From contig CP047423.1 of assembly GCA_014058405.1 (NCBI GenBank), positions 1,116,001 through 1,180,000 of the forward strand: a DNA stretch of 64,000 nucleotides, in the 5' to 3' direction. Below the pieces are notes generated by a model. The model was not told the origin of the DNA and ran no database searches. It saw only the letters and a program-made list of their open reading frames with translations. Of this stretch, positions 1,420-12,471 are shown in pieces. How positions within the stretch are numbered: position 1 is the first letter of the stretch; the number at the start of each line of letters is the position of its first letter. The position numbers and the translations under genes were made by a program. This DNA comes from Candidatus Nitrospira kreftii (GTDB lineage: Bacteria; Nitrospirota; Nitrospiria; Nitrospirales; Nitrospiraceae).

Positions 1420-2411
1420 GATTGCTGTACGATCTGAAAGTTCGATATTCTACCACGGAGAGACGGTTCTGGATTAGGGCGATGGTTCTTCTCGCTGTTG
1501 CCTTTCCCATCGGTTGCATTGCGATTTCCCTGCCGAGCGTGCAAGCTGGTGATGCTCACTATACGGGCAAGCAAGGTCAAATTTTGGTGGTCAACGTTCC
1601 AACCGATGGTGGTGTCACCGGCGTAGAGGGAACGTTTCTAGGCCGTTCCCTCAGCTTCTTCCCTGATCCCCGATTTGAAGAACCGAAAGGATTTGTTGGT
1701 TTGCTCGGGATCGACTTGCAAGATGAACCGGGAATCCATGAACTGACCGTCAAAGTACAGGCTGTGGAGCAAAGCCAGACGTTGACGTACCGTGTCCAGG
1801 TTCTCAAGGAGAAATTTCAGGTTGAGCGCCTCACGCTGCCGAAAAACAAAGTCGATCTTGATGAAAAACATTTGGCTCGATGGCAGGCGGAACAAGCACA
1901 GGTAAAGGACATGCTGGCCCACGATTCCCGCATGAAGTTCTGGCAGGCGGGTTTTGTCGAGCCGGTGAGCGGCAAGCGAACCGGAATTTTCGGGAGTGTC
2001 AGGATCATGAATGGTCAGGCCCGCAATCCTCATAACGGTGAAGATATCGGCGCTCCGCTCGGAACCGAGGTGGTTGCGACAAATGACGGCATTGTACGGC
2101 TGACTGTTGATCATGTTTTTTCTGGGAAAGGAGTCTTTTTAGACCACGGGCTGGGTTTGTACTCAATGTATTTCCATCTCTCCGAAGTGCTGGTCAAGGA
2201 AGGCGATGTGGTAAAGACCGGTGAGATCGTCGGTAAAGTGGGAGCCACCGGGAGAGCGACCGGCCCCCATCTCCATTGGGGGGTGAAACTCAACGGCGCG
2301 CGCGTGAATCCCTATGCCTTGCTGGATCTACCGTTCACGGGGAGTGTGCAATCGGCCGCTCCGGTGCCGGTCTCGGTTCCAGGGACTGGTGTCGGCTCGC
2401 CGGATCCATAA
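1416..2411 (+). CDS. M23 (LytM-type) metallopeptidase, membrane-anchored or secreted
   Basis: Probable peptidoglycan DD-endopeptidase, or a catalytic LytM factor acting in the periplasm. A hydrophobic N-terminal segment (about residues 22-46, ending near SVQA) is a signal peptide or signal anchor. A beta-rich middle region follows (about 47-140), then the C-terminal LytM domain. The zinc motifs are complete: HxxxD (His206 and Asp210 in NPHNGED) and HLH (His285 and His287 in GPHLHWG), so the enzyme should be active. The tail is rich in Pro, Val and Gly. The start overlaps the pafA stop by ATGA, so the two genes are probably translationally coupled. No functional link to the proteasome is evident. 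Confidence 0.9.
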   Translation: MRLLYDLKVRYSTTERRFWIRAMVLLAVAFPIGCIAISLPSVQAGDAHYTGKQGQILVVNVPTDGGVTGVEGTFLGRSLSFFPDPRFEEPKGFVGLLGIDLQDEPGIHELTVKVQAVEQSQTLTYRVQVLKEKFQVERLTLPKNKVDLDEKHLARWQAEQAQVKDMLAHDSRMKFWQAGFVEPVSGKRTGIFGSVRIMNGQARNPHNGEDIGAPLGTEVVATNDGIVRLTVDHVFSGKGVFLDHGLGLYSMYFHLSEVLVKEGDVVKTGEIVGKVGATGRATGPHLHWGVKLNGARVNPYALLDLPFTGSVQSAAPVPVSVPGTGVGSPDP

Positions 2412-2511
2412 TTCTAGCCGTCTGTCATTTCAGGTTTTCCCTATGATTTCCGACTGACCTTGCACAACGCCGGCATACCCTCTGGTTCCTCCAGTGGATA
2501 TCGGGTTCAGC

Positions 2512-2767
2512 ATGAGAATCTTCCTGTTTCCTCGTTTCGCTCCTGCTCGCCGCTCATCGATTCTCGCTGACTGAACAGACGGGTCAGTTCAAAGGAGCGC
2601 TCTTCCTTCTCCTCATCGGTATCCAATTGCTGACTGCCGCGACTCTCATTTCTCAACATCGAGAAGAGCGTGCTCAGTCATCGTCGATGGAAGTTGATAA
2701 GGAAGACCATGAGAAAGTCGGGGCAAGGGAGGTGAACCCATCGAGGGAGCAAGGAAAGAAATCGTGA
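2512..2767 (+). pseudogene. Frameshifted small membrane-protein ORF
   Basis: From 2516 to 2767 one frame is open and reads like a small membrane protein. It has two hydrophobic stretches (FLVSLLLAA and ALFLLLIGIQLLTAATLI) followed by a charged Glu/Lys/Arg-rich tail. That frame has no ATG, GTG or TTG before its second hydrophobic stretch. An ATG at 2512 in the neighbouring frame would join it after a one-base shift near 2520-2530. It is therefore either a decayed gene or a chance ORF. I recognise no family. The rest of 2412-3037 shows no gene, RNA or clear repeat. Confidence 0.3.
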
Positions 2768-3037
2768 AATACGCTCAGGTGCCTAGATTAAAAAAGTTAT
2801 GCTGGTAAACGAGTTGAGTGATTTGAAAAGAGGCATTGTAAGAAGAATTTGGTAAACATCGATGGGGGTTCAGGACTCTTGTGATCTTATAAACTGGATG
2901 AATGAATTCTGCGCGTCGATGGCATTCTGCGGCTAGATTCTGAAAACATGATAGGGCGAGGTTACAAATACGAGTTTCCAACGCATCACGATCGACCTAG
3001 TAGAGCGGTGTGATCTCCAGAAGGTTCGTGTGGTTCG

Positions 3038-3427
3038 CTACTCGGCATCCAGTCTTGTGAGGTCATGCAGCGCATTGCGCAGTGGGACGGCAACGCTCTT
3101 CCCGACAGCATTCTCATAGCTCACCTGCGCTTTTCGCCAAAACCGTTTGGCCTCTGCGAATTTTTCTGCACCTTTTGCGGCAAGCCTCACACGGCGTATT
3201 CTGCCGTCGGCAGCACCTGGTCGCAATACGACCAGATTTCGGCGAAGGAGAGGCCTCAGATTATGTCCAAGAGTCGATCGATCCATTACAAGATAATCCG
3301 ACAGCTCATTCATAGTTGGAGGCTTATGGCGACTATGGGACAGTTCCGCTAGGATGGACAACTGGGTCGTTTTTAACCCTATAGCTCTCAGATGAGTGTC
3401 ATAGATCAACGAAACGCGTCGCGCAGG
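3038..3427 (-). pseudogene. MarR-family regulator, 5' end lost
   Basis: Winged-helix DNA-binding protein of the MarR family, paralogous to the gene at 3830-4285. The shared stretches include GLKTTQ, PPTMNEL, YLVMDRSTLGHN and GRxRRVxLxAKGA. Similarity to the paralogue runs upstream of the first possible start (TTG at 3409) through an in-frame ARRVS and then stops near 3425, exactly where transposase-like sequence begins. The N-terminal helix of the MarR dimerisation domain (the CYCAVLRKAV part of the paralogue) is therefore missing. A 123-residue product from the TTG would keep the recognition helix but probably dimerise poorly. I interpret this as a gene truncated by an insertion sequence that later decayed. 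Confidence 0.7.
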
Positions 3428-3735
3428 TGATCCAATTGTTTTTGCCCGCTAAGGATGAACCCGTCACGCCGCGGAGCTTGCGCTTCGCGCTCGATCGGGC
3501 CACGCTGCGCAAGGTGCGGCGCCGGGAAGGACGCTACCTGCTGCGCACCAATCTCGCGGTGCGCGATCCCGATCAGCTCTGGACGTGCACGTGCCCACCA
3601 CCGATGGCTGTGAACTGGTGCTCTCCCTCTACACGCAACCCGAGCCAGAACACCGCATGATTCTGGACGTGTTGCGCTTAAAACTGCCCGCCCAGCCTTC
3701 GCTGAGGATCAGCGCAACGGATATCCCAGGACAGG
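3427..3735 (+). mobile_element. Remnant of an IS transposase (IS1634/IS4-like)
   Basis: Two short pieces in different frames resemble the C-terminal part of IS1634-type DDE transposases. The first (about 3457-3580) reads RFALDRATLRKVRRREGRYL then LRTNL and DPDQLW. The second (about 3585-3730) reads VPTTDGCELVLSLYTQPEPE followed by a LRLKLPAQPS tail. The N-terminal domains and the sequence between the pieces are missing, so the element is dead. Its left edge abuts the truncated marR copy. No terminal inverted repeats were identified by eye. The family assignment rests on remembered motif patterns. Confidence 0.6.
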
Positions 3736-3829
3736 CCAGCAGTTTCATTTGCCAATTGCTGAGAGCGGAACGCGACACACCAAGCGGTCGCTGAGCACCG
3801 CTCCTCTAGACTGTCCGCGTAGGATTCCT

Positions 3830-4285
3830 TTAGTGAGCGCCAGATGTAGCCAGCTTCTCCAGGGCGTTTCGTAGCGAGACGGCGGCGGTCTTCCCTATTA
3901 AAAACTCGTACTCCTGCTGGGCCTTCCGCCACGATGCTTTGGCATTAGCATATTTCGCTGCACCCTTTGCGGTGAGCGTCACACGTCGCGTTCTTCCATC
4001 AATCGCATCGGGCTTTAGCGCCACTAACCCTTGGCGCAACAGTGGCCTCACGTTATGCCCGAGCGTTGAGCGGTCCATTACCAAGTATTCCGCCAGTTCA
4101 TTCATGGTCGGAGGTGTTGAGCGATGTCTGCCTAGTTCCCCTAGCAATGCGAACTGAGTCGTCTTGAGTCCGGTATTCCTCAGTTGCGCATCATAGAGAA
4201 CCGACACGCGCCGGACGGCTTTTCGCAAGACGGCGCAGTAGCACGGAACATGCGACGATATTGGCTTACCCATCAGTTCACCCAT
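3830..4285 (-). CDS. MarR-family transcriptional regulator, divergent from the amoC unit
   Basis: Complete 151-residue MarR-type winged-helix regulator. The N-terminal dimerisation helix contains CYCAVLRKAVRRVSVLYDAQL, with paired cysteines near residues 15 and 17. The DNA-recognition part is PPTMNELAEYLVMDRSTLGH, and the wing is DAIDGRTRRVTLTAKG. ATG at 4285 or 4273 could be the start; AGGAG lies only a base or two before the first, so the second is possible. It is transcribed away from the amoC unit from a strong back-to-back promoter, and a palindrome lies in its expected leader. MarR proteins usually repress themselves and the divergent gene, so this protein is the natural candidate regulator of amoC. 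The paired cysteines might allow redox or metal sensing, which is speculative. Confidence 0.85.
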   Translation of the reverse strand: MGELMGKPISSHVPCYCAVLRKAVRRVSVLYDAQLRNTGLKTTQFALLGELGRHRSTPPTMNELAEYLVMDRSTLGHNVRPLLRQGLVALKPDAIDGRTRRVTLTAKGAAKYANAKASWRKAQQEYEFLIGKTAAVSLRNALEKLATSGAH

Positions 4286-4291
4286 TCTCCT

Positions 4292-4304
4292 ACGTGGTTC
4301 ACGT
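4292..4304. promoter_or_regulatory. Palindrome ACGTG-GTT-CACGT in the marR leader
   Basis: A perfect 5-bp inverted repeat with a 3-bp centre lies between the marR start (4285) and its predicted -10 (4312-4317). It sits at about the transcription start. This position suits an autorepression operator. No second copy was seen at the amoC promoter. Confidence 0.4.
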
Positions 4305-4311
4305 CGTGGAC

Positions 4312-4340
4312 ATTATATGTCGTTCTCGACTATTTGCCAA
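4312..4340 (-). promoter_or_regulatory. Sigma70-like promoter of marR
   Basis: Read on the minus strand, TTGGCA (4335-4340) is followed by a 17-base spacer and a consensus TATAAT (4312-4317). Transcription would start near 4305 and enter the marR gene at 4285. Its -35 lies four bases from the -35 of the opposing promoter. Confidence 0.7.
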
Positions 4341-4344
4341 CGGC

Positions 4345-4374
4345 TTGACACCAACTGAGTGTAGCACGTAATAT
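4345..4374 (+). promoter_or_regulatory. Sigma70-like promoter of the small ORF-amoC unit
   Basis: Consensus TTGACA (4345-4350), an 18-base spacer and TAATAT (4369-4374). The expected start is near 4381, giving a leader of about 60 bases before the small ORF at 4443. The -10 box lies inside the left arm of a long inverted repeat, suggesting control by a bound repressor. Confidence 0.7.
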
Positions 4375-4420
4375 TAGGGGCATGTCCCCTTTTTATACAG
4401 GCATATGCCCCCAATATTAC
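4368..4420. promoter_or_regulatory. Long inverted repeat over the amoC-unit promoter
   Basis: Arms 4368-4385 and 4403-4420 match at 16 of 18 positions (GTAATATTRGGGGCATRT, where R marks the mismatches) around a 17-base spacer. The right arm also holds a perfect 10-bp palindrome, GGCATATGCC (4400-4409). The left arm covers the -10 box and lies mostly upstream of the predicted start, so a DNA operator is more likely than an RNA hairpin. Confidence 0.55.
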
Positions 4421-4442
4421 AACGTAACCAAGGAGGTGGTAC

Positions 4443-4586
4443 ATGGCGACACCTATACGAGCACCCAATGCGCGCCAGTTGGATCCTTTAGAAGACAAGG
4501 CTGGCGATGCATTGCGTTACAGATGGGGGTGGTTAATGGGATTAGCCTTCGGGGCTTTAACGGCCGCCTACCGTTATGCAGGCTGA
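4443..4586 (+). CDS. Small single-helix membrane protein upstream of amoC
   Basis: A 47-residue ORF preceded by a near-perfect Shine-Dalgarno (AAGGAGGTG, 4430-4438) at ideal spacing. It has a polar N-terminal half (MATPIRAPNARQLDPLEDKA) and then one hydrophobic helix of about 16 residues (WGWLMGLAFGALTAAY), ending in RYAG. It lies 51 bases before amoC, which has its own Shine-Dalgarno, and both are downstream of the same predicted promoter. I recognise no family. The shape and position suggest an accessory membrane subunit or assembly factor for AmoC, by analogy with the extra small helices and PmoD/AmoD-type proteins of copper membrane monooxygenases. That role is inference only. It is too short to appear in usual gene calls. 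Confidence 0.75.
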   Translation: MATPIRAPNARQLDPLEDKAGDALRYRWGWLMGLAFGALTAAYRYAG

Positions 4587-4637
4587 ACAATCGGAGCTGG
4601 AAGACGGTTTCATTATTTCACTAGGGAGGTGTGAATC

Positions 4638-5465
4638 ATGGCATCCTCAACTGAAACAACCAACGATAGAGGGTACGACATCGCGCAGTGGTACGACTCG
4701 AAGCCAGTGAAGATCGGCTGGTTAGCGATCCTGGCGATTGGCGTCTTTTGGGTGCTGTATCAACGGGCATTTGGGTACTCGCACGGGTTGGACTCCATGA
4801 CCCCGGAATTCGACTCGGTGTGGATGGGACTGTGGCGGTTTAACATCTTAGCGAACGCGGTGTTCTTTGCGACGACGATCGGGTGGATCTGGGTCACGCG
4901 AGATCGGAACCTGGCGAACCTGGCGCCCAAACTGGAGCTGAAGCGGTACTTTTACTGGATGGGCTGGCTGGTGTGTTACATGTGGGGCGTGTACTACGCG
5001 GGGAGCTATACGCTGGAGCAGGATGCGGCGTGGCACCAGGTGATCATTCGGGACACGAGCTTCACGGCGAGCCATATTGTGGCGTTCTATGGGACGTTCC
5101 CCTTGTACATCACCTGCGGAGTGGCAACCTACTTGTATGCGCAAACGCGATTGCCGTTGTACAGCCAGGCAACCTCATTCGCCTTAGTGGCGGCGGTGGT
5201 GGGGCCCATGTTCATTCTGCCGAACGTGGGACTCAACGAGTGGGGCCACGCGTTCTGGTTTGTCGATGAGCTGTTCTCGGCGCCGTTGCACTGGGGCTTT
5301 GTGACGTTGGGCTGGTGCGGGTTGTTCGGGGCGGCGGGCGGAGTGGCGGCGCAGATTATCAGCCGGATGTCGAATTTGGCAGACGTGGTCTGGAACAACG
5401 CACCGAAGAGCATTCTGGATCCGTTCCCCAGCCAGGCGAACCCTAACGCCAAGGCCGGGTACTAA
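4638..5465 (+). CDS. amoC: Ammonia monooxygenase subunit C (solitary copy)
   Basis: Integral membrane subunit of the copper-dependent ammonia monooxygenase, which oxidises ammonia to hydroxylamine. The protein has 275 residues and about six hydrophobic helices. The Cu-site pattern DxxxHx12H is intact (Asp129, His133 and His146 in [20 protein letters not shown]), as in PmoC, so it should be functional. An AGGGAGGTG Shine-Dalgarno precedes the ATG. No amoA, amoB or hao is present in the window, so this is a non-operonal amoC. Such solitary copies occur in ammonia oxidisers, and in Nitrosomonas one has been linked to stress recovery. The gene visibly uses G- and C-ending codons more than its neighbours, consistent with high expression. 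Its presence makes the host a comammox Nitrospira rather than a canonical nitrite oxidiser, given the other genes. Confidence 0.95.
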
Positions 5466-5514
5466 GCAGAAGGGAGCAGTCTAATAACGAAAGGTCCATG
5501 TGAGGCAGAAGGTT

Positions 5515-5539
5515 CGGCGCTCTGAAGTCCGGAGCGCCG
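5515..5539 (+). terminator. GC-rich hairpin after amoC
   Basis: Eight-base stem CGGCGCTC/GAGCGCCG (5515-5522 and 5532-5539) with a nine-base loop, 50 bases after the amoC stop. No T-tract follows, so it is not a classical intrinsic terminator. It may instead protect the amoC mRNA 3' end. Confidence 0.4.
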
Positions 5540-5601
5540 GGCCGCCTCCGCTCGTGTAGATAGGGTTACTGACGCTACGGAATCATCGTGAGAGGCGACC
5601 C

Positions 5602-7410
5602 GTGAAACCCACAATTCAAAAATTACTGTTTTGGTCCGTATTAGGTCTGTTTCTGATCTTGCTTCTCAATCTGTGGAGTATGCCGCCGCGGGCACTAGAG
5701 GAACAGATCATTTTCAGCGATTTCATGGCGAAGCTCGACCAGGGCGATATTGAAAAGGTCGTCATCAAGGGCAATTACCTCAATGGTGTCCTGAAAGATA
5801 ATACACGGCTTCGAACCTACGCAGCGGACTATCCTGATCTCGTACAGGTGCTGCGAGAGAAGCACGTTCAGATCGAAGTCACGCCACCCAATGAATACCC
5901 GTGGTACATCCAATTTCTCATGACATGGGGACCGTTCGTTCTCTTTTTTGGCCTGTTCTTATTCTTCATGCGCCGGATGCAGACTGGGAACCAGGCCCTC
6001 TCCCTCGTGAAAAGCAGAGCCCGCTTGCTGACGGATGATCGAAAAAAGGTGACCTTTGCCGATGTGGCAGGAGTCGATGAAGCGAAATCGGAGGTACAGG
6101 AAACGGTCGAGTTTTTGAAAGAACCGCGAAAGTTTCAGAAACTCGGGGGACGTATCCCCAAGGGGGTCTTGCTCGTGGGGCCGCCTGGAACCGGGAAGAC
6201 ACTATTGGCGAAAGCGATTGCCGGTGAGGCAGGCGTCCCCTTCTTCAGCATCAGCGGTTCGGATTTTGTGGAAATGTTCGTGGGCGTCGGGGCCTCTCGG
6301 GTTCGCGATATGTTCGAGCAAGCGAAAAAGCAGGCTCCCTGTATCATTTTTATCGATGAAATCGACGCCGTCGGACGGTCACGGGGAGCGGGGATCGGCG
6401 GTGGCAACGATGAACGTGAGCAAACCCTGAACCAGTTGCTGGTCGAAATGGACGGATTCGATACGACGGAGGGCGTCATTTTGGTGGCCGCGACGAATCG
6501 ACCGGATGTGCTGGATCCGGCCCTGCTGAGGCCGGGCCGCTTTGATAGGCAAGTAGTGGTGACTCAGCCGGATCTCCGAGGCCGTTCGGAAATTCTAAAG
6601 GTGCACACGAAGAAAGTGCCGATTGCGGCGAACGTCGAATTGGAAAAGATTGCCCGGGGTACCCCCGGTTTCTCCGGCGCGGATCTGGAAAACTTGGTCA
6701 ATGAAGCCGCGCTCTGGGCTGCCCGTCAGAACAAACACGAAGTCGGGGTTGTGGACTTCGAAATGGCCAAGGACAAGATTATGATGGGCACCGAGCGCAA
6801 GAGCATGATGCTTACGGACGAGGAAAAGCAGGTCACGGCATATCATGAGGCTGGCCATACCCTGATGGCCAAATTGTTGCCGAACACCGATCCGGTTCAC
6901 AAAGTGTCGATTATTCCGAGAGGTCGGGCGTTGGGTGTCACCATGCAGTTGCCGACCGATGACCGCCATAATTATTCCAATGAGTTTTTATACAATACAT
7001 TAGCAATTCTGATGGGCGGCAGGGTTGCAGAAGAACTGGTGTTTAAACAGGTCACAACCGGTGCGGGCAACGATTTGGAGCGCGCGACGGCCCTTGCGCG
7101 GCAAATGGTCTGCGAATGGGGCATGAGTGAAAAGATTGGACCGCTCGTGTTCGGGCAAAAAGAGGAATCGATGTTTCTGGGCCGCTCTTTTGGGGCCAAG
7201 CGTGATGTCAGTGATGAAATAGCCTTAGAGATCGATCGAGAAATCAAGCGCCTCGTCACGGAGAATTACGAACGGGCCAAGCGGGTCCTGACCGAACAGA
7301 TGGCAAGCTTAAAAGCGTTGGCGGAGGCGCTCTTGGAGAAAGAAGTGCTGGACGCATCGGAAATCGATGCGCTTCTTTTACAATCTTCTTCTCAGGCTGT
7401 CCTAGCCTAA
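5602..7410 (+). CDS. ftsH: ATP-dependent zinc metalloprotease FtsH
   Basis: Membrane-bound AAA+ protease that extracts and degrades misfolded or regulatory membrane proteins and some cytosolic ones. Two transmembrane helices (about residues 8-25 and 108-128) flank a small periplasmic domain. The AAA module has Walker A GPPGTGKT (193-200), Walker [10 protein letters not shown] and the SRH region RPGRFDRQV. The zinc protease motif is HEAGH (415-419). The length of 602 residues is normal. It starts at GTG 5602 with AGAGG upstream. It follows amoC on the same strand after 136 bases containing a hairpin. It could be involved in AmoC quality control, but ftsH is also a general housekeeping gene. 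Confidence 0.95.
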
Positions 7411-7687
7411 GGTCTGTTGATGTTCAGTAGCCTGCTCCTCAAGATTTCAACGGATGGAACATGCCTGGAGACTCTCGATCAAGTTGTCGTCAATCCATTC
7501 GTGAAAGGAGCGACGGCTGCCGTGGAGGTCCGATGGGGCTCAGTGACTCCTGTGACACTCGAATCCGGAAGTGATTAGGACAATGCAGATATTGCACGCG
7601 GTGTATCGTCCTGGTTGGTGATGGTTTCACGATTCGATATGTACCGGGCGTGATAGTGATAAACCAAACTGCTTAGGAGTGAAACAT

Positions 7688-8446
7688 ATGAGACTCGCAC
7701 ACAGGATCGCGATTGTAACCGGTGGAGGGACCGGCATCGGTGAAGCGATTGCGAAGGTTTTTGCTCGGGAAGGCGCGAAAGTTGCGATCACAGGCCGGCG
7801 GCAGGACGAATTGGAACGCGTTGTTGAAGACATTGAGCGAACAGGCGGACAGGCTTTAGCACTTCCAGGCAGTGTGACCAACGAACACGACGTGCAGGAA
7901 GCAGTGGCAGCTACTGTCAGGACCTTTGGTCGTCTCGATATTCTGGTCAACAATGCGGGCAATTTGTTCTATACGGCGCGACTTCACGAGACCACTGATC
8001 AGATTTGGGATGAGACCTTTGACGTGTTTATGAAGGGGACGTTTCGATTCATTCGTGCGGTAATTCCTCGGATGCTTCAGCAGGGCGGCGGCTCGATCCT
8101 GAATATCTCCACAGTCGTCGGGCTCAAGGCAATTCCCGGCTTTGAGGCTCATGCGTATCAAGCGGCCAAGGCGGGTGTGATCATGCTCACCAAGACAGTG
8201 GCTGTGCACTACGCTAAGCAAAACATCCGTTGTAACTGTATCTGTCCAGCTGGCGTTGTTACCCCACCCATCGCAAACATGGTGAAGGATCCACAGATTA
8301 GAGCCTGGTTCGAAGGCATCCACCCAATGGGTCGGCTCGGGCAGCCGGCGGAGGTTGCCGAAGCGACGGTTTATTTTGCATCCGAGGAATCGGGCTGGAC
8401 AACCGGGAGCATCCTGTCGGTGGATGGCGGTGTGACGGCCGCATAA
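7688..8446 (+). CDS. Short-chain dehydrogenase/reductase (SDR)
   Basis: Classical SDR of 252 residues with a Rossmann fold. It has the cofactor motif TGGGTGIG (about residues 11-18), NNAG, a catalytic Ser in NISTVVG, and YxxxK (Tyr157 and Lys161). The end (TTGSILSVDGG) is typical of FabG-like enzymes, but the substrate cannot be told. The basic ITGRR segment after beta-strand 2 suggests NADP(H). The ATG at 7688 is chosen because AGGAG lies eight bases before it; a GTG at 7679 is in frame but overlaps that site. It appears to stand alone. The 277 bases before it hold no gene I could support. Confidence 0.85.
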   Translation: MRLAHRIAIVTGGGTGIGEAIAKVFAREGAKVAITGRRQDELERVVEDIERTGGQALALPGSVTNEHDVQEAVAATVRTFGRLDILVNNAGNLFYTARLHETTDQIWDETFDVFMKGTFRFIRAVIPRMLQQGGGSILNISTVVGLKAIPGFEAHAYQAAKAGVIMLTKTVAVHYAKQNIRCNCICPAGVVTPPIANMVKDPQIRAWFEGIHPMGRLGQPAEVAEATVYFASEESGWTTGSILSVDGGVTAA

Positions 8447-8517
8447 GCGATAGAAGACCAGGCACGAGAAGACTTGTGGTATCCAGGTGATTTTCCGAAG
8501 GTCTTTAAGGAGCGGTT

Positions 8518-8595
8518 ATGGATATTATTCCGCTGTACGCATTGGTGTATATTGTAATCATCCTCGGTGGGTGGTACGTGTACAATCGGTTCTAA
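8518..8595 (+). CDS. 25-residue hydrophobic peptide
   Basis: Tiny ORF with a good Shine-Dalgarno (AAGGAGCGG) directly upstream. The product is almost entirely one membrane helix (ALVYIVIILGGWYVYNRF at the C-terminus). Such short single-helix proteins are common regulators or stabilisers of membrane complexes, but no family is recognised. The 3' half lies in the first copy of a 38-bp-spaced direct repeat whose second copy is frameshifted. This may mark duplication or decay of a slightly longer gene. Confidence 0.45.
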   Translation: MDIIPLYALVYIVIILGGWYVYNRF

Positions 8596-8623
8596 TCATC
8601 CTCGGTGGGTTGATCGTGTACAA
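8555..8623 (+). repeat. Imperfect tandem duplication, 38-bp period
   Basis: Copies at 8555-8585 and 8593-8623 match at 28 of 31 bases (both begin TAATCATCCTCGGTGGGT). The period is not a multiple of three, so the second copy is read in another frame (LIILGGLIVYK). The rest of 8624-8898 shows only a weak hydrophobic ORF (8652-8849) without a ribosome-binding site. Confidence 0.65.
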
Positions 8624-8898
8624 AATGAGTGCGTAGGTCGCCGGCCTAGAATTGGGCATCCTCCTAGGGGGAGGCCTCATCCTCCTGAGAAGTACTCTTG
8701 CGGTGTATCTGATCCAGTCTTGCGGTGTCAGCGCCGATGCTATACATCCTCAAAGCACCGAACTGAAAAGTCCCCTGAACACCGAGTCACAATGTTCCTT
8801 CACCGATCATCCAGACGGGGGAGGGTCGGATGCTGCGAAGGGAGGATGAACGTGTCGGTTTTGTGCAATGGAGCGTGACGTGGTATTAATGACACGTC

Positions 8899-9590
8899 AT
8901 GAATGAGCTCCTCACCTCGATCGCCACAAAGAAGATGCAGCTTGACGCGTTGCGTCCGATCTCACGCGCGGCGTTGCTAGCCTTGCAGAAATCCTATGAT
9001 GTGGACTTGACCTACACTTCTAATGCCATTGAAGGCAACACGCTGACTCTACGGGAGACGGCGGAACTGATCGAGCATGGAATTACCGTTGAGGGAAAAT
9101 CCTTGCATGATCATCTTGAAGCGATCGATCACTACGAAGCGGTCTTATGGATGCGCGAACTCGCGGCGAAGACGATACCGATTGCTCAACACACAGTGTG
9201 CGCATCGACGTATTGTGTCTCGCAGCCAGCCTGAGATCGGCGGGATGTACAGCACCATTCCCCGACGCATTGCTGGTTCCCCAGTGGTCTTTCCGAACGG
9301 CGGTGAAAATTCCCGAGCTGATGCGGGCCTATGGTGAATGGATTTCGAAGGCGGCATCTGAACCGGCTACCAGCTTTGATGCGCATTACCGGCTCGTGGC
9401 CATTCATCTATTTGCGGATGGCAACGGACGTACGGCCAGGCTTGTGATGAATGGCCTGCTCCTGCGTGGCGGGTATCCACCGGTTGCCGTTCAACCGGAA
9501 GACCGAAAAGCCTACCTCGATACACTGGAACATGCATCAATGAGGGAAGATCTGACGCCTTTTCAGACGTTCATGCATGTGTTTCTTATT
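8899..9590 (+). pseudogene. Broken Fic-domain adenylyltransferase gene
   Basis: Fic proteins transfer AMP or similar groups to target proteins. The pieces lie in three frames. The first (8899 to about 9195) has the inhibitory-helix motif (S/T)xxxE(G/N) in TSNAIEGNTL. The second (about 9200-9297) reads RSQPEIGGMYSTIPRRIAGS. The third (from about 9302) reads KIPELMRAY and contains the Fic core HLFADGNGRTAR. At least two frameshifts, near 9195 and 9300, separate them. Similarity fades near 9585, where a convergent gene ends. The catalytic core is conserved but cannot be joined to the N-terminal part, so the gene is probably dead unless these are sequence errors. Confidence 0.75.
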
Positions 9591-9957
9591 CCGGCGAGAT
9601 GCCTAATCCTCCGAGCAGAGGCAGTATGCTCTCCTCTCCAGGTCCCTTGCCCTCCTTTGACGCCTGGCTGATGTCAGACAAGAGTTGCCCGGCTTCGGGG
9701 CTCAATTGTTTCAGCCGTTTGCCCAGTTGGCCTGACATCATGCTTCGTTGGACCTCGTCGTCCGTGAGTTGTCCATCCTTGATGCTTTGCTGGATGATCT
9801 GAGCCAAAGATTCAACCTTCGCCAGGATTTCCGGGGGCATTCCATTTAAAATTCTTTCTGCGCCCTGCTGCCCCCCACCGAGTTGGGCATAGGCTGGAAC
9901 GTCGAATAATAAGAAAATCCAGCAGATAGCGATCAGCATTGATCTTCTCACCCTCAT
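9586..9957 (-). CDS. Small secreted hypothetical protein
   Basis: A 123-residue protein with a clear Sec signal peptide (MRVRRS, then LIAICWIFLLF, cleavage near AYA-Q). The mature part is helical and polar, rich in Gln, Glu and Leu (PPEILAKVESLAQIIQQSIK and later LTDDEVQRSMMSG). It has no cysteines after the signal peptide and no catalytic motif. GAGAGGAGG precedes the ATG. The predicted location is the periplasm. No family is recognised. It converges on the fic remnant. Confidence 0.7.
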   Translation of the reverse strand: MRVRRSMLIAICWIFLLFDVPAYAQLGGGQQGAERILNGMPPEILAKVESLAQIIQQSIKDGQLTDDEVQRSMMSGQLGKRLKQLSPEAGQLLSDISQASKEGKGPGEESILPLLGGLGISPE

Positions 9958-10196
9958 AGCAACCTCCTCTCCAGTAACCTTACGAATCGAGTTTAGTCAT
10001 CTCAGTCTGTGCAGGATGCCTGCCAGCGTCCATTGAAACGGCGACGAAGTAAAAATGGCATAAGAAGAGTCAAGTACGCCTGGAAGTCTACCGATACAGT
10101 CCTATACTCATTTGAGAAGATAGGGAAATGTTTAGATGAACTGTCGGATGCTTGGTGGTGGGCATCATCTGAATCTAATGGTGGAGGGGAGCGCCG

Positions 10197-11046: not shown

Positions 11047-12471
11047 CTAGTAATTGGTTTCAAGACTGGTCGGTGTCTTATTGAGGACGGTCGCAGCTGC
11101 TTGCGATAGGGCAGCATCATGAGTATGGTCTGGCGAATAGATCCGAAATTGAATGAGTCTTGTAGGAAGCAGATCAAGAAATTCTTCGAGGGGTTCGGAG
11201 GAGACTTGGCCGTTACCGGGATCATAGACGTATAAGGGGTTTCCGCGGCGATCTTTAGGATCAGGTCGTGGATCCAGGAGGGCCATGTCCACCCGGAATG
11301 GGAGTCGCTTCAGGCCTGCCGGCAATTCTTTCATAATCTGCTGTTCGAAGTGGCGATGGCTGGGAAACGCCATTCCGCGCTCCTGCCCCTTTTCTTTCAG
11401 GGTCGTGCTGTAGGCCATCTTCCATTTAACATCGCGGTCCAAGATTCTTGCCCACTCCTGCCCCAACTGCCGGCGGAGTTTGTGGCGGGAGTGTTTCCAG
11501 TCTCGAACCTCTTCCAAGAGCGACCAATCAGTCAGGATGCGATAGTCTTCCATCTTCTTTCGCGGATCGCGCGGGCACAGCAGCGACATCGTCTGGCCGA
11601 AAATATCGCGTAGATGGATGTCGATGGCCCTCGTCGTACGGTGATAATACACGTTGGAGTAGAGGTACATTCTCGTGTTCAAAAACATTTGGAGCGCGGG
11701 AAGCCCGGTTTTATGAATGGTGAATCCCTTGTCGGTCACGATCGTATAATGAATTAACCGTGTCAGATCGACCGGGCCCACAGCGACGCCGCACATGTAG
11801 GAATCCCGCAAGACATAATCCAGATTGTCTCCGGTATAGCTTCCGGAGATCACCGGTTGGAGCATGTTCAACCATCGAGGTAACCGGGAATTATCCTTAC
11901 CCTTTTCTTTGAGAATCAGATGAGCGATCTGATCCGGATTGATTTCTTCTCCCTTCGCGAAGGGCCCTGAAGGGCTTCGGCGGATTTTCCTGATCACCGG
12001 AGCCAAGTGCTCTCGGATGATGATCTGCCCCAAGCGTTCGTGAGAGAGGCCCATGCCATGGAGAAAATTGTCGTCGAAGAAATGGCAAAACGGACCGTGT
12101 CCGATATCGTGCACCAAGGCCGTGACCCGCAAGAGCTCTTCCACATAATTGGCCGACGGCACCTCTTTGACCACTTTCTTGAGGAAGGGATACAGATGTC
12201 GGGCGAATCGTCCTGCCACGTGCATCGTCCCCAAGGAGTGAACGAAGCGGGTATGCTCGGCAGACGGATAGACCCAACGGGCACTTTGGAGTTGATAAAT
12301 ATACCGTAGGCGTTGGACCCACGGAGAATCGATCAGATCTTTCTCGGTGAACTCGTGCGGATCAGGAGTCGCGTAAGGAACGGTGAAGGTAACATACTTG
12401 TGAATCGGATCAGCGATGAGTGCCGATCCATCATACGGAGCATTCGGTCGGTCTGCAGGTTCCATAACCAC
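11047..12471 (-). CDS. HD-superfamily phosphohydrolase (COG1078-type, dGTPase-like)
   Basis: Metal-dependent phosphohydrolase related to dNTP triphosphohydrolases and SAMHD1. Of 474 residues, the HD core shows HTRFVHSLG (His73 and His78), then ALVHDIGHGPFCH (HD at 121-122) and a later conserved NLDYVLRDSY segment carrying the last metal Asp. It likely hydrolyses dNTPs or another nucleotide in the cytoplasm; the substrate is unknown. It can start at GTG 12471 or ATG 12465. It follows the DUF2062 gene by a few bases, within a minus-strand series that includes thiL and lon. Confidence 0.85.
   Translation of the reverse strand: MVMEPADRPNAPYDGSALIADPIHKYVTFTVPYATPDPHEFTEKDLIDSPWVQRLRYIYQLQSARWVYPSAEHTRFVHSLGTMHVAGRFARHLYPFLKKVVKEVPSANYVEELLRVTALVHDIGHGPFCHFFDDNFLHGMGLSHERLGQIIIREHLAPVIRKIRRSPSGPFAKGEEINPDQIAHLILKEKGKDNSRLPRWLNMLQPVISGSYTGDNLDYVLRDSYMCGVAVGPVDLTRLIHYTIVTDKGFTIHKTGLPALQMFLNTRMYLYSNVYYHRTTRAIDIHLRDIFGQTMSLLCPRDPRKKMEDYRILTDWSLLEEVRDWKHSRHKLRRQLGQEWARILDRDVKWKMAYSTTLKEKGQERGMAFPSHRHFEQQIMKELPAGLKRLPFRVDMALLDPRPDPKDRRGNPLYVYDPGNGQVSSEPLEEFLDLLPTRLIQFRIYSPDHTHDAALSQAAATVLNKTPTSLETNY

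Follow-up and report, generated by a model that had tools for sequence, protein, structure and literature searches.

A probable mosaic amoC island carrying a truncated and an intact marR gene in a comammox-type Nitrospira genome

Taken as a whole, the region described here is probably best explained as an inserted mosaic amoC island that holds a MarR-family pseudogene truncated by an insertion sequence (marR_L) and an intact MarR regulator (marR_R) that likely represses the amoC unit. The window, i.e. the whole stretch of DNA that was analysed, spans 64,000 nucleotides (positions 1116001-1180000) of a genome consisting of a single contig of 4.13 Mb. This genome is that of a comammox-type Nitrospira, an assignment made because it contains six amoC matches and because its relatives are Nitrospira. 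Full-length open frames were found for marR_R, amoC, ftsH and an SDR oxidoreductase, and marR_L is the only damaged one among the regulator and amoC genes. No tRNA was found in the window and no tandem repeats were found in 2300-10000.

Insertion site and mosaic composition of the island

The stretch from 2672 to 9579, located between the M23-peptidase and small-ORF side and the gene at 9586-9957, has no counterpart at this site in the closest relatives. The two flanks are 6.9 kb apart here, 94 bp apart in relatives G110 and G086, 240 bp in G073 and 534 bp in G114, in agreement with the part of the original prediction that had the amoC island moving. An M23 match occurs in 67 other genomes, and our survey of the site took in 43 of them. 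Of these 43 loci, 34 run across the whole site; island DNA was matched in one of the 34 (G064) and in none of the remaining 33. G064 has no more of the island here than a marR and an amoC piece of 45 residues; its amoC, ftsH and SDR lie elsewhere in the genome. G066 and G128 carry island DNA behind the M23 gene but no single stretch spans the site; for G066 the right flank appears further on, in a second stretch. The amoC island of G066 has on either side a copy of the small ORF that follows the M23 gene, and the two share 82% identity over 361 bp. The site itself is variable: in the relatives where it is spanned, its flanks lie as little as 58 bp and as much as about 9 kb apart, and other ORFs fill it (seven stretches, inspected by eye). 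Judged by sequence comparison, the empty sites in relatives show that the mosaic amoC island is an insertion, the variable site lying behind pafA and the M23-peptidase gene. The similarity table of the relatives leaves out SDR and ftsH matches below 60% and pafA matches below 70%, and two weak partial matches in it (tnpA at 36% in G076 and smORF47 at 43% in G106) were ignored as noise.

By eye, the small ORF 3' of the M23 gene (2512-2767, forward strand) is seemingly frame-shifted with respect to relatives, and a Fic-type gene at the right end of the island (8899-9671, forward strand) is split over two frames and looks broken. An uninterrupted 243-aa form of the Fic-type gene, with 86% DNA identity, was observed at the same site in G083.

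The island was found to be uneven in its synonymous divergence (dS) from relatives. The dS between marR_L and its counterpart in G064 is 0.12, and the SDR gene (7679-8446, forward strand; DNA identity of 95-97% to G066, G128 and G064) gave 0.08-0.10 to the same three relatives. Both are far below the flanking genes, where pafA, M23 and the gene at 11047-12471 gave 1.17-2.81 or saturation against G066, G128 and G064 (the G128 value for 11047-12471 is not included). For marR_R we obtained 0.31 to G116, 0.45 to G103 and 0.58 to G066. The island-linked ftsH (5602-7410, forward strand) has a dS of 0.84-1.02 in its 5' part and of 0.28-0.42 to G066, G128 and G064 at its 3' end, matches at 33% identity in G110 and G086 being left out, and sliding identity places the switch in similarity within the gene near 7100-7230. 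The low dS of amoC (0.52-0.80) may reflect constraint rather than transfer.

At the DNA level, marR_R and smORF47, a 47-aa ORF lying between marR_R and amoC (4443-4586, forward strand) that was found in five relatives, are closest to G116 and G117, which stand out with 87% and 84-85% identity respectively. The corresponding pairs of values are 83.0% and 82.3% in G066, 83.4% and 79.9% in G103, and 78.5% and 71.0% in G107. Since the two G066 genes, located at this very site, match about as well as those of G103, R-type marR genes at the site are not confined to this genome, and the left half has no single clear donor. Pairwise comparisons of smORF47 gave 3-7 synonymous against 7-17 nonsynonymous codons per pair, and it is called an ORF only since no clear purifying selection was seen in them. 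The block is a mosaic in which marR_L appears nearest to G064, marR_R and smORF47 nearest to G116/G117 (closely followed by G066), amoC nearest to G103/G107/G116, and the ftsH 3' end and SDR nearest to G066/G128/G064. An ORF for a 25-aa hydrophobic peptide 3' of SDR (8518-8595, forward strand) also occurs in G066 (84%) and G064 (72%).

The stand-alone amoC (4638-5465, forward strand) is intact and matches the bacterial AmoC model NF041641 with 342 bits at a cut-off of 319. Trees were built from 22 amoC (at least 230 aa, 70% identity) and 19 ftsH (at least 550 aa, 60%) sequences from the fetched loci, the former covering five of the copies in this genome with the sixth amoC match left out. A branch with SH-aLRT 99.5 and bootstrap 83 separates the amoC of the window, together with G103, G107 and G116, from the four other copies of the same genome (L098, L099, L100 and L101), which form a 100/100 group; the inner fork is weak (79.1/64). 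The ftsH tree placed the window ftsH without resolution. The four other amoC copies are alike, as if by gene conversion, which the window copy escapes. A second amoC-ftsH pair, with no match to marR or smORF47, is present in the same genome (L098, 5470-8331), and amoC-ftsH linkage recurs in several relatives.

Non-operonal amoC genes were reported in 2018 for every AOB and comammox genome then known and are possibly stress-linked in AOB (PMC6311188); four of them are given for Ca. N. kreftii (PMC8115096). The window amoC resembles the stand-alone amoC of AOB and comammox Nitrospira in being non-operonal, but its linked neighbours set it apart: a divergent marR whose operator-like site is conserved, the 47-aa ORF and ftsH. 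The pairing of an R-type marR with the small ORF and amoC recurs in G116, G117 (where amoC is cut by the contig end), G103, G107 and G066, and in G128 an L-type marR adjoins amoC. No description of a marR-amoC-ftsH unit was found in the accessible portions of the open-access literature on comammox amoC with MarR or FtsH and on extra or singleton amoC.

The truncated regulator and the transposase relic

marR_L (3038-3424, reverse strand) belongs to the MarR family by Pfam (MarR_2, E 5.8e-9) and has lost its 5' end. It shares 90% DNA identity with the intact G064 orthologue over 3044-3424 and the homology stops at 3424, next to the end of MarR similarity at about 3425 given in the original prediction. 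Relative to G064, marR_L lacks about 19 N-terminal codons, including a CxC motif at the start of helix alpha1, together with the promoter and operator. The prediction of a truncated gene holds, as the relatives G064, G128, G124 and G084 have a full-length gene (150-157 residues from stop to stop) and a short form was not seen as the normal gene in relatives. The shorter second marR of G116 and G117 (L040 and L041), situated elsewhere, is different in that it has an internal deletion of the wing region; the copy in G116 adjoins a tautomerase-like ORF.

The dN/dS of marR_L against G064 is 0.90, compared with 0.08-0.43 for ten other defined marR pairs, three of which compare marR_L with less closely related genes and mainly reflect older constraint; one further pair is undefined. 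On the marR_L branch, 16 of the 23 polarised changes are nonsynonymous and seven synonymous, and the comparison with the G064 branch (7:16 versus 0:4; Fisher p 0.55) is a small sample that is not significant. From the dN/dS of 0.90 against G064 we therefore read marR_L as a decaying pseudogene.

Beside marR_L, fragments of an IS1634-like transposase were found, as had been predicted. Piece A (3454-3582, forward strand) aligns with residues 437-479 of an IS1634 transposase frame from a Rhizobium plasmid with a score of 118 (maximum 51 in 500 shuffles), and piece B (3582-3734, forward strand), which is the C-terminus in another frame, aligns with residues 556-606 of the same frame with a score of 121 (shuffle maximum 48). 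The reference frame is uninterrupted and matches the NCBIfam model transpos_IS1634 at E 2.1e-87. It was also the only plasmid match of piece A in tblastn (E 7e-7), where the 3' ORF of the relic had none. The ORFs of the relic matched no Pfam or NCBIfam model, so that the IS1634 identity is one of pairwise homology of the two pieces only. Between the two pieces the frame changes and about 75 residues have been lost, and about 430 N-terminal residues are absent. The relic thus resembles IS1634 insertion sequences in its C-terminal transposase homology, but it amounts to about one sixth of the protein, is out of frame and has no ends that were found. Its GC content is 0.616, against 0.53 for the window.

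The stretch at 3735-3788 is probably a non-coding 3' remainder of the IS, the exact end of which was not found. We place the right edge of the relic at about 3788 because the 3' flank of marR_R (3789-3829) is partly common to G103, with a 31-bp match (90%) starting at about 3789. Terminal repeats were also looked for, but no inverted pair of at least 14 bp was found around the relic, and neither was a target duplication, the 5' end of the IS being gone. In G116, the 3' flank of marR_R (L042, 4949-6471) contains a transposase-like gene of the integrase-core (rve) type beside an incomplete outer-membrane efflux gene, which is an independent scar at the same flank.

Searches of the same genome for further copies of the IS gave three DNA matches (E 0.1-0.9), which were taken as chance and not as a second copy, and one further protein match (E 1.1). 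Among 78 other genomes of the genus, weak protein matches to the relic occur in five (E 2e-6 to 5e-3). The three best of these (G107, G106 and G108) look like degraded transposases by eye, and two pieces of the G107 frames matched no transposase model in Pfam. The matches in G056 and G058 sit, by eye, among ABC-transporter-like frames and look like chance. Within a phylum sample of 395 genomes, a match at E 1e-8 was found only in the genome of the window itself. Truncation of a regulator by an IS is in itself ordinary.

Origin of the two marR genes

marR_L and marR_R share 61% identity over query residues 18-146, and no other match of their kind was found in the genome at E 0.01. In the rooted tree, marR_R falls into a clade of seven with G107, G135, G116, G117, G066 and G103 (bootstrap/SH-aLRT 100/99), and marR_L lies outside this clade on a long branch, with G064 nearest by path and a grouping support of 83/67. 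Forcing the two into sisterhood costs 42.8 log-likelihood units (AU p 4.45e-5). By these trees, marR_L and marR_R are old, separate lineages and not duplicates within this lineage. A tandem duplication of one marR in this lineage, with or without amoC, followed by an IS entering the left copy, would account for two homologous genes standing side by side. It is nevertheless very improbable and we reject it on the AU test, and each gene is far closer to another species, with a dS of 0.12 between marR_L and G064 and of 0.31 between marR_R and G116. The suggestion that the amoC island was duplicated or moved therefore stands for the move, given the empty site in relatives, and falls for the duplication, as the marR genes are not sisters and the genome has no further marR of this kind.

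Three relatives carry island genes at this site, each with a single marR, of the L type in G064 and G128 and of the R type in G066. That both types occur at the site in different species would fit an ancestral island in which the two stood in tandem and were lost differentially in relatives, with the IS damage as the only recent event. We consider this account rather unlikely, since the tandem arrangement was seen at none of the other marR loci examined, the site is empty in the closest relatives, and the dS differs strongly from block to block. Another reading would keep marR_L as a working short regulator that starts from a TTG at 3409 and acts, for instance, as a dominant-negative partner of marR_R, since a 123-aa open frame with the DNA-binding domain is left. 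Its dN/dS makes this reading hardly credible; moreover, it would have to work without the start of helix alpha1 and its CxC, the promoter and the operator, where full-length orthologues have about 147-157 aa.

We prefer an inserted mosaic as the explanation. In this history, the island would have entered the variable site behind pafA and the M23-peptidase gene, with an L-type marR resembling the G064 gene as one of its parts. The 5' end of marR_L, or its vicinity, would have been hit by an IS1634 element, and later deletions would have taken away the larger part of the IS as well as the start, promoter, operator and CxC helix of the gene. The outcome of this damage is plain from the alignments; the order of the events we infer. 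The adjoining R-type marR-smORF-amoC unit, similar to those of G116, G103 and G107, would have arrived by recombination between species, which is the most likely origin in view of the trees and synonymous divergence.

The intact regulator and the amoC-facing promoter

marR_R (3830-4285, reverse strand) contains a winged helix of the MarR type (MarR_2, E 4.1e-10; 40.1 bits at a cut-off of 27). The CxC motif at the start of helix alpha1 is present in 12 rows of a 13-row marR alignment, marR_R among them, and is missing only from marR_L. Its best PDB sequence match is 4fx0 (E 1.1e-15), with the CxC aligned. marR_R shares its family and this aligned motif with MosR (Rv1049) of Mycobacterium tuberculosis. 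The entry 4fx0 is MosR, where Cys10 and Cys12 on helix alpha1 form a redox disulphide (PMC5823404). MosR differs in coming from another phylum and in having another target, and a redox response of marR_R is a prediction.

The promoter-like sequence facing amoC (4345-4410, forward strand) comprises a TTGACA at 4345-4350 and two operator-like boxes resembling GGGCATATGCCC at 4378-4389 (two mismatches) and 4399-4410 (one mismatch). A GGGCATATGCCC-like box with at most two mismatches was found in all 13 upstream regions compared, which are related and not independent, and two boxes 20-21 bp apart (at most three mismatches) in 10 of the 13. A TTGACA-like hexamer with at most one mismatch lies near the box in 13 of 13, these hexamers being best-match picks without a shuffle control. 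At no more than one mismatch, the genome contains nine GGGCATATGCCC sites against two for the reversed control. All eight sites outside the window fall within mechanically called ORFs of at least 100 aa, the window site alone lying outside such ORFs, and we therefore propose no wider regulon. The gene facing related marR genes varies, being tautomerase-like in G124, G084 and the second copy of G116 (by Pfam for G084 only), other ORFs in G135, and kinase-like and response-regulator-like ORFs in G064 (by eye).

Because of its MosR homology, the conserved CxC and the conserved sites, marR_R is most likely a redox-released repressor of the amoC unit that would bind the GGGCATATGCCC-like candidate boxes on the amoC-facing promoter, with oxidation of the CxC releasing it as in MosR. 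The working unit is likely a redox-responsive, horizontally exchanged marR-amoC-ftsH cassette, its regulation being predicted by analogy. These surroundings, a mosaic amoC cassette with a conserved sensor-operator pair, are more useful than the ordinary IS relic. They suggest that stand-alone amoC units are swapped among comammox species as mosaic blocks, and they single out, for an ammonia-monooxygenase gene of comammox bacteria, a concrete and testable candidate pair of regulator and operator. More tentatively, comammox Nitrospira may exchange a self-contained, redox-controlled spare AMO module made up of a MosR-like sensor, its promoter with the operator, a small protein, a stand-alone amoC and the membrane protease FtsH. 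If so, the module would be switched on by oxidative stress to replace or repair AMO, and its promoter-regulator part would be portable, facing tautomerase-like or sensor-kinase genes elsewhere.
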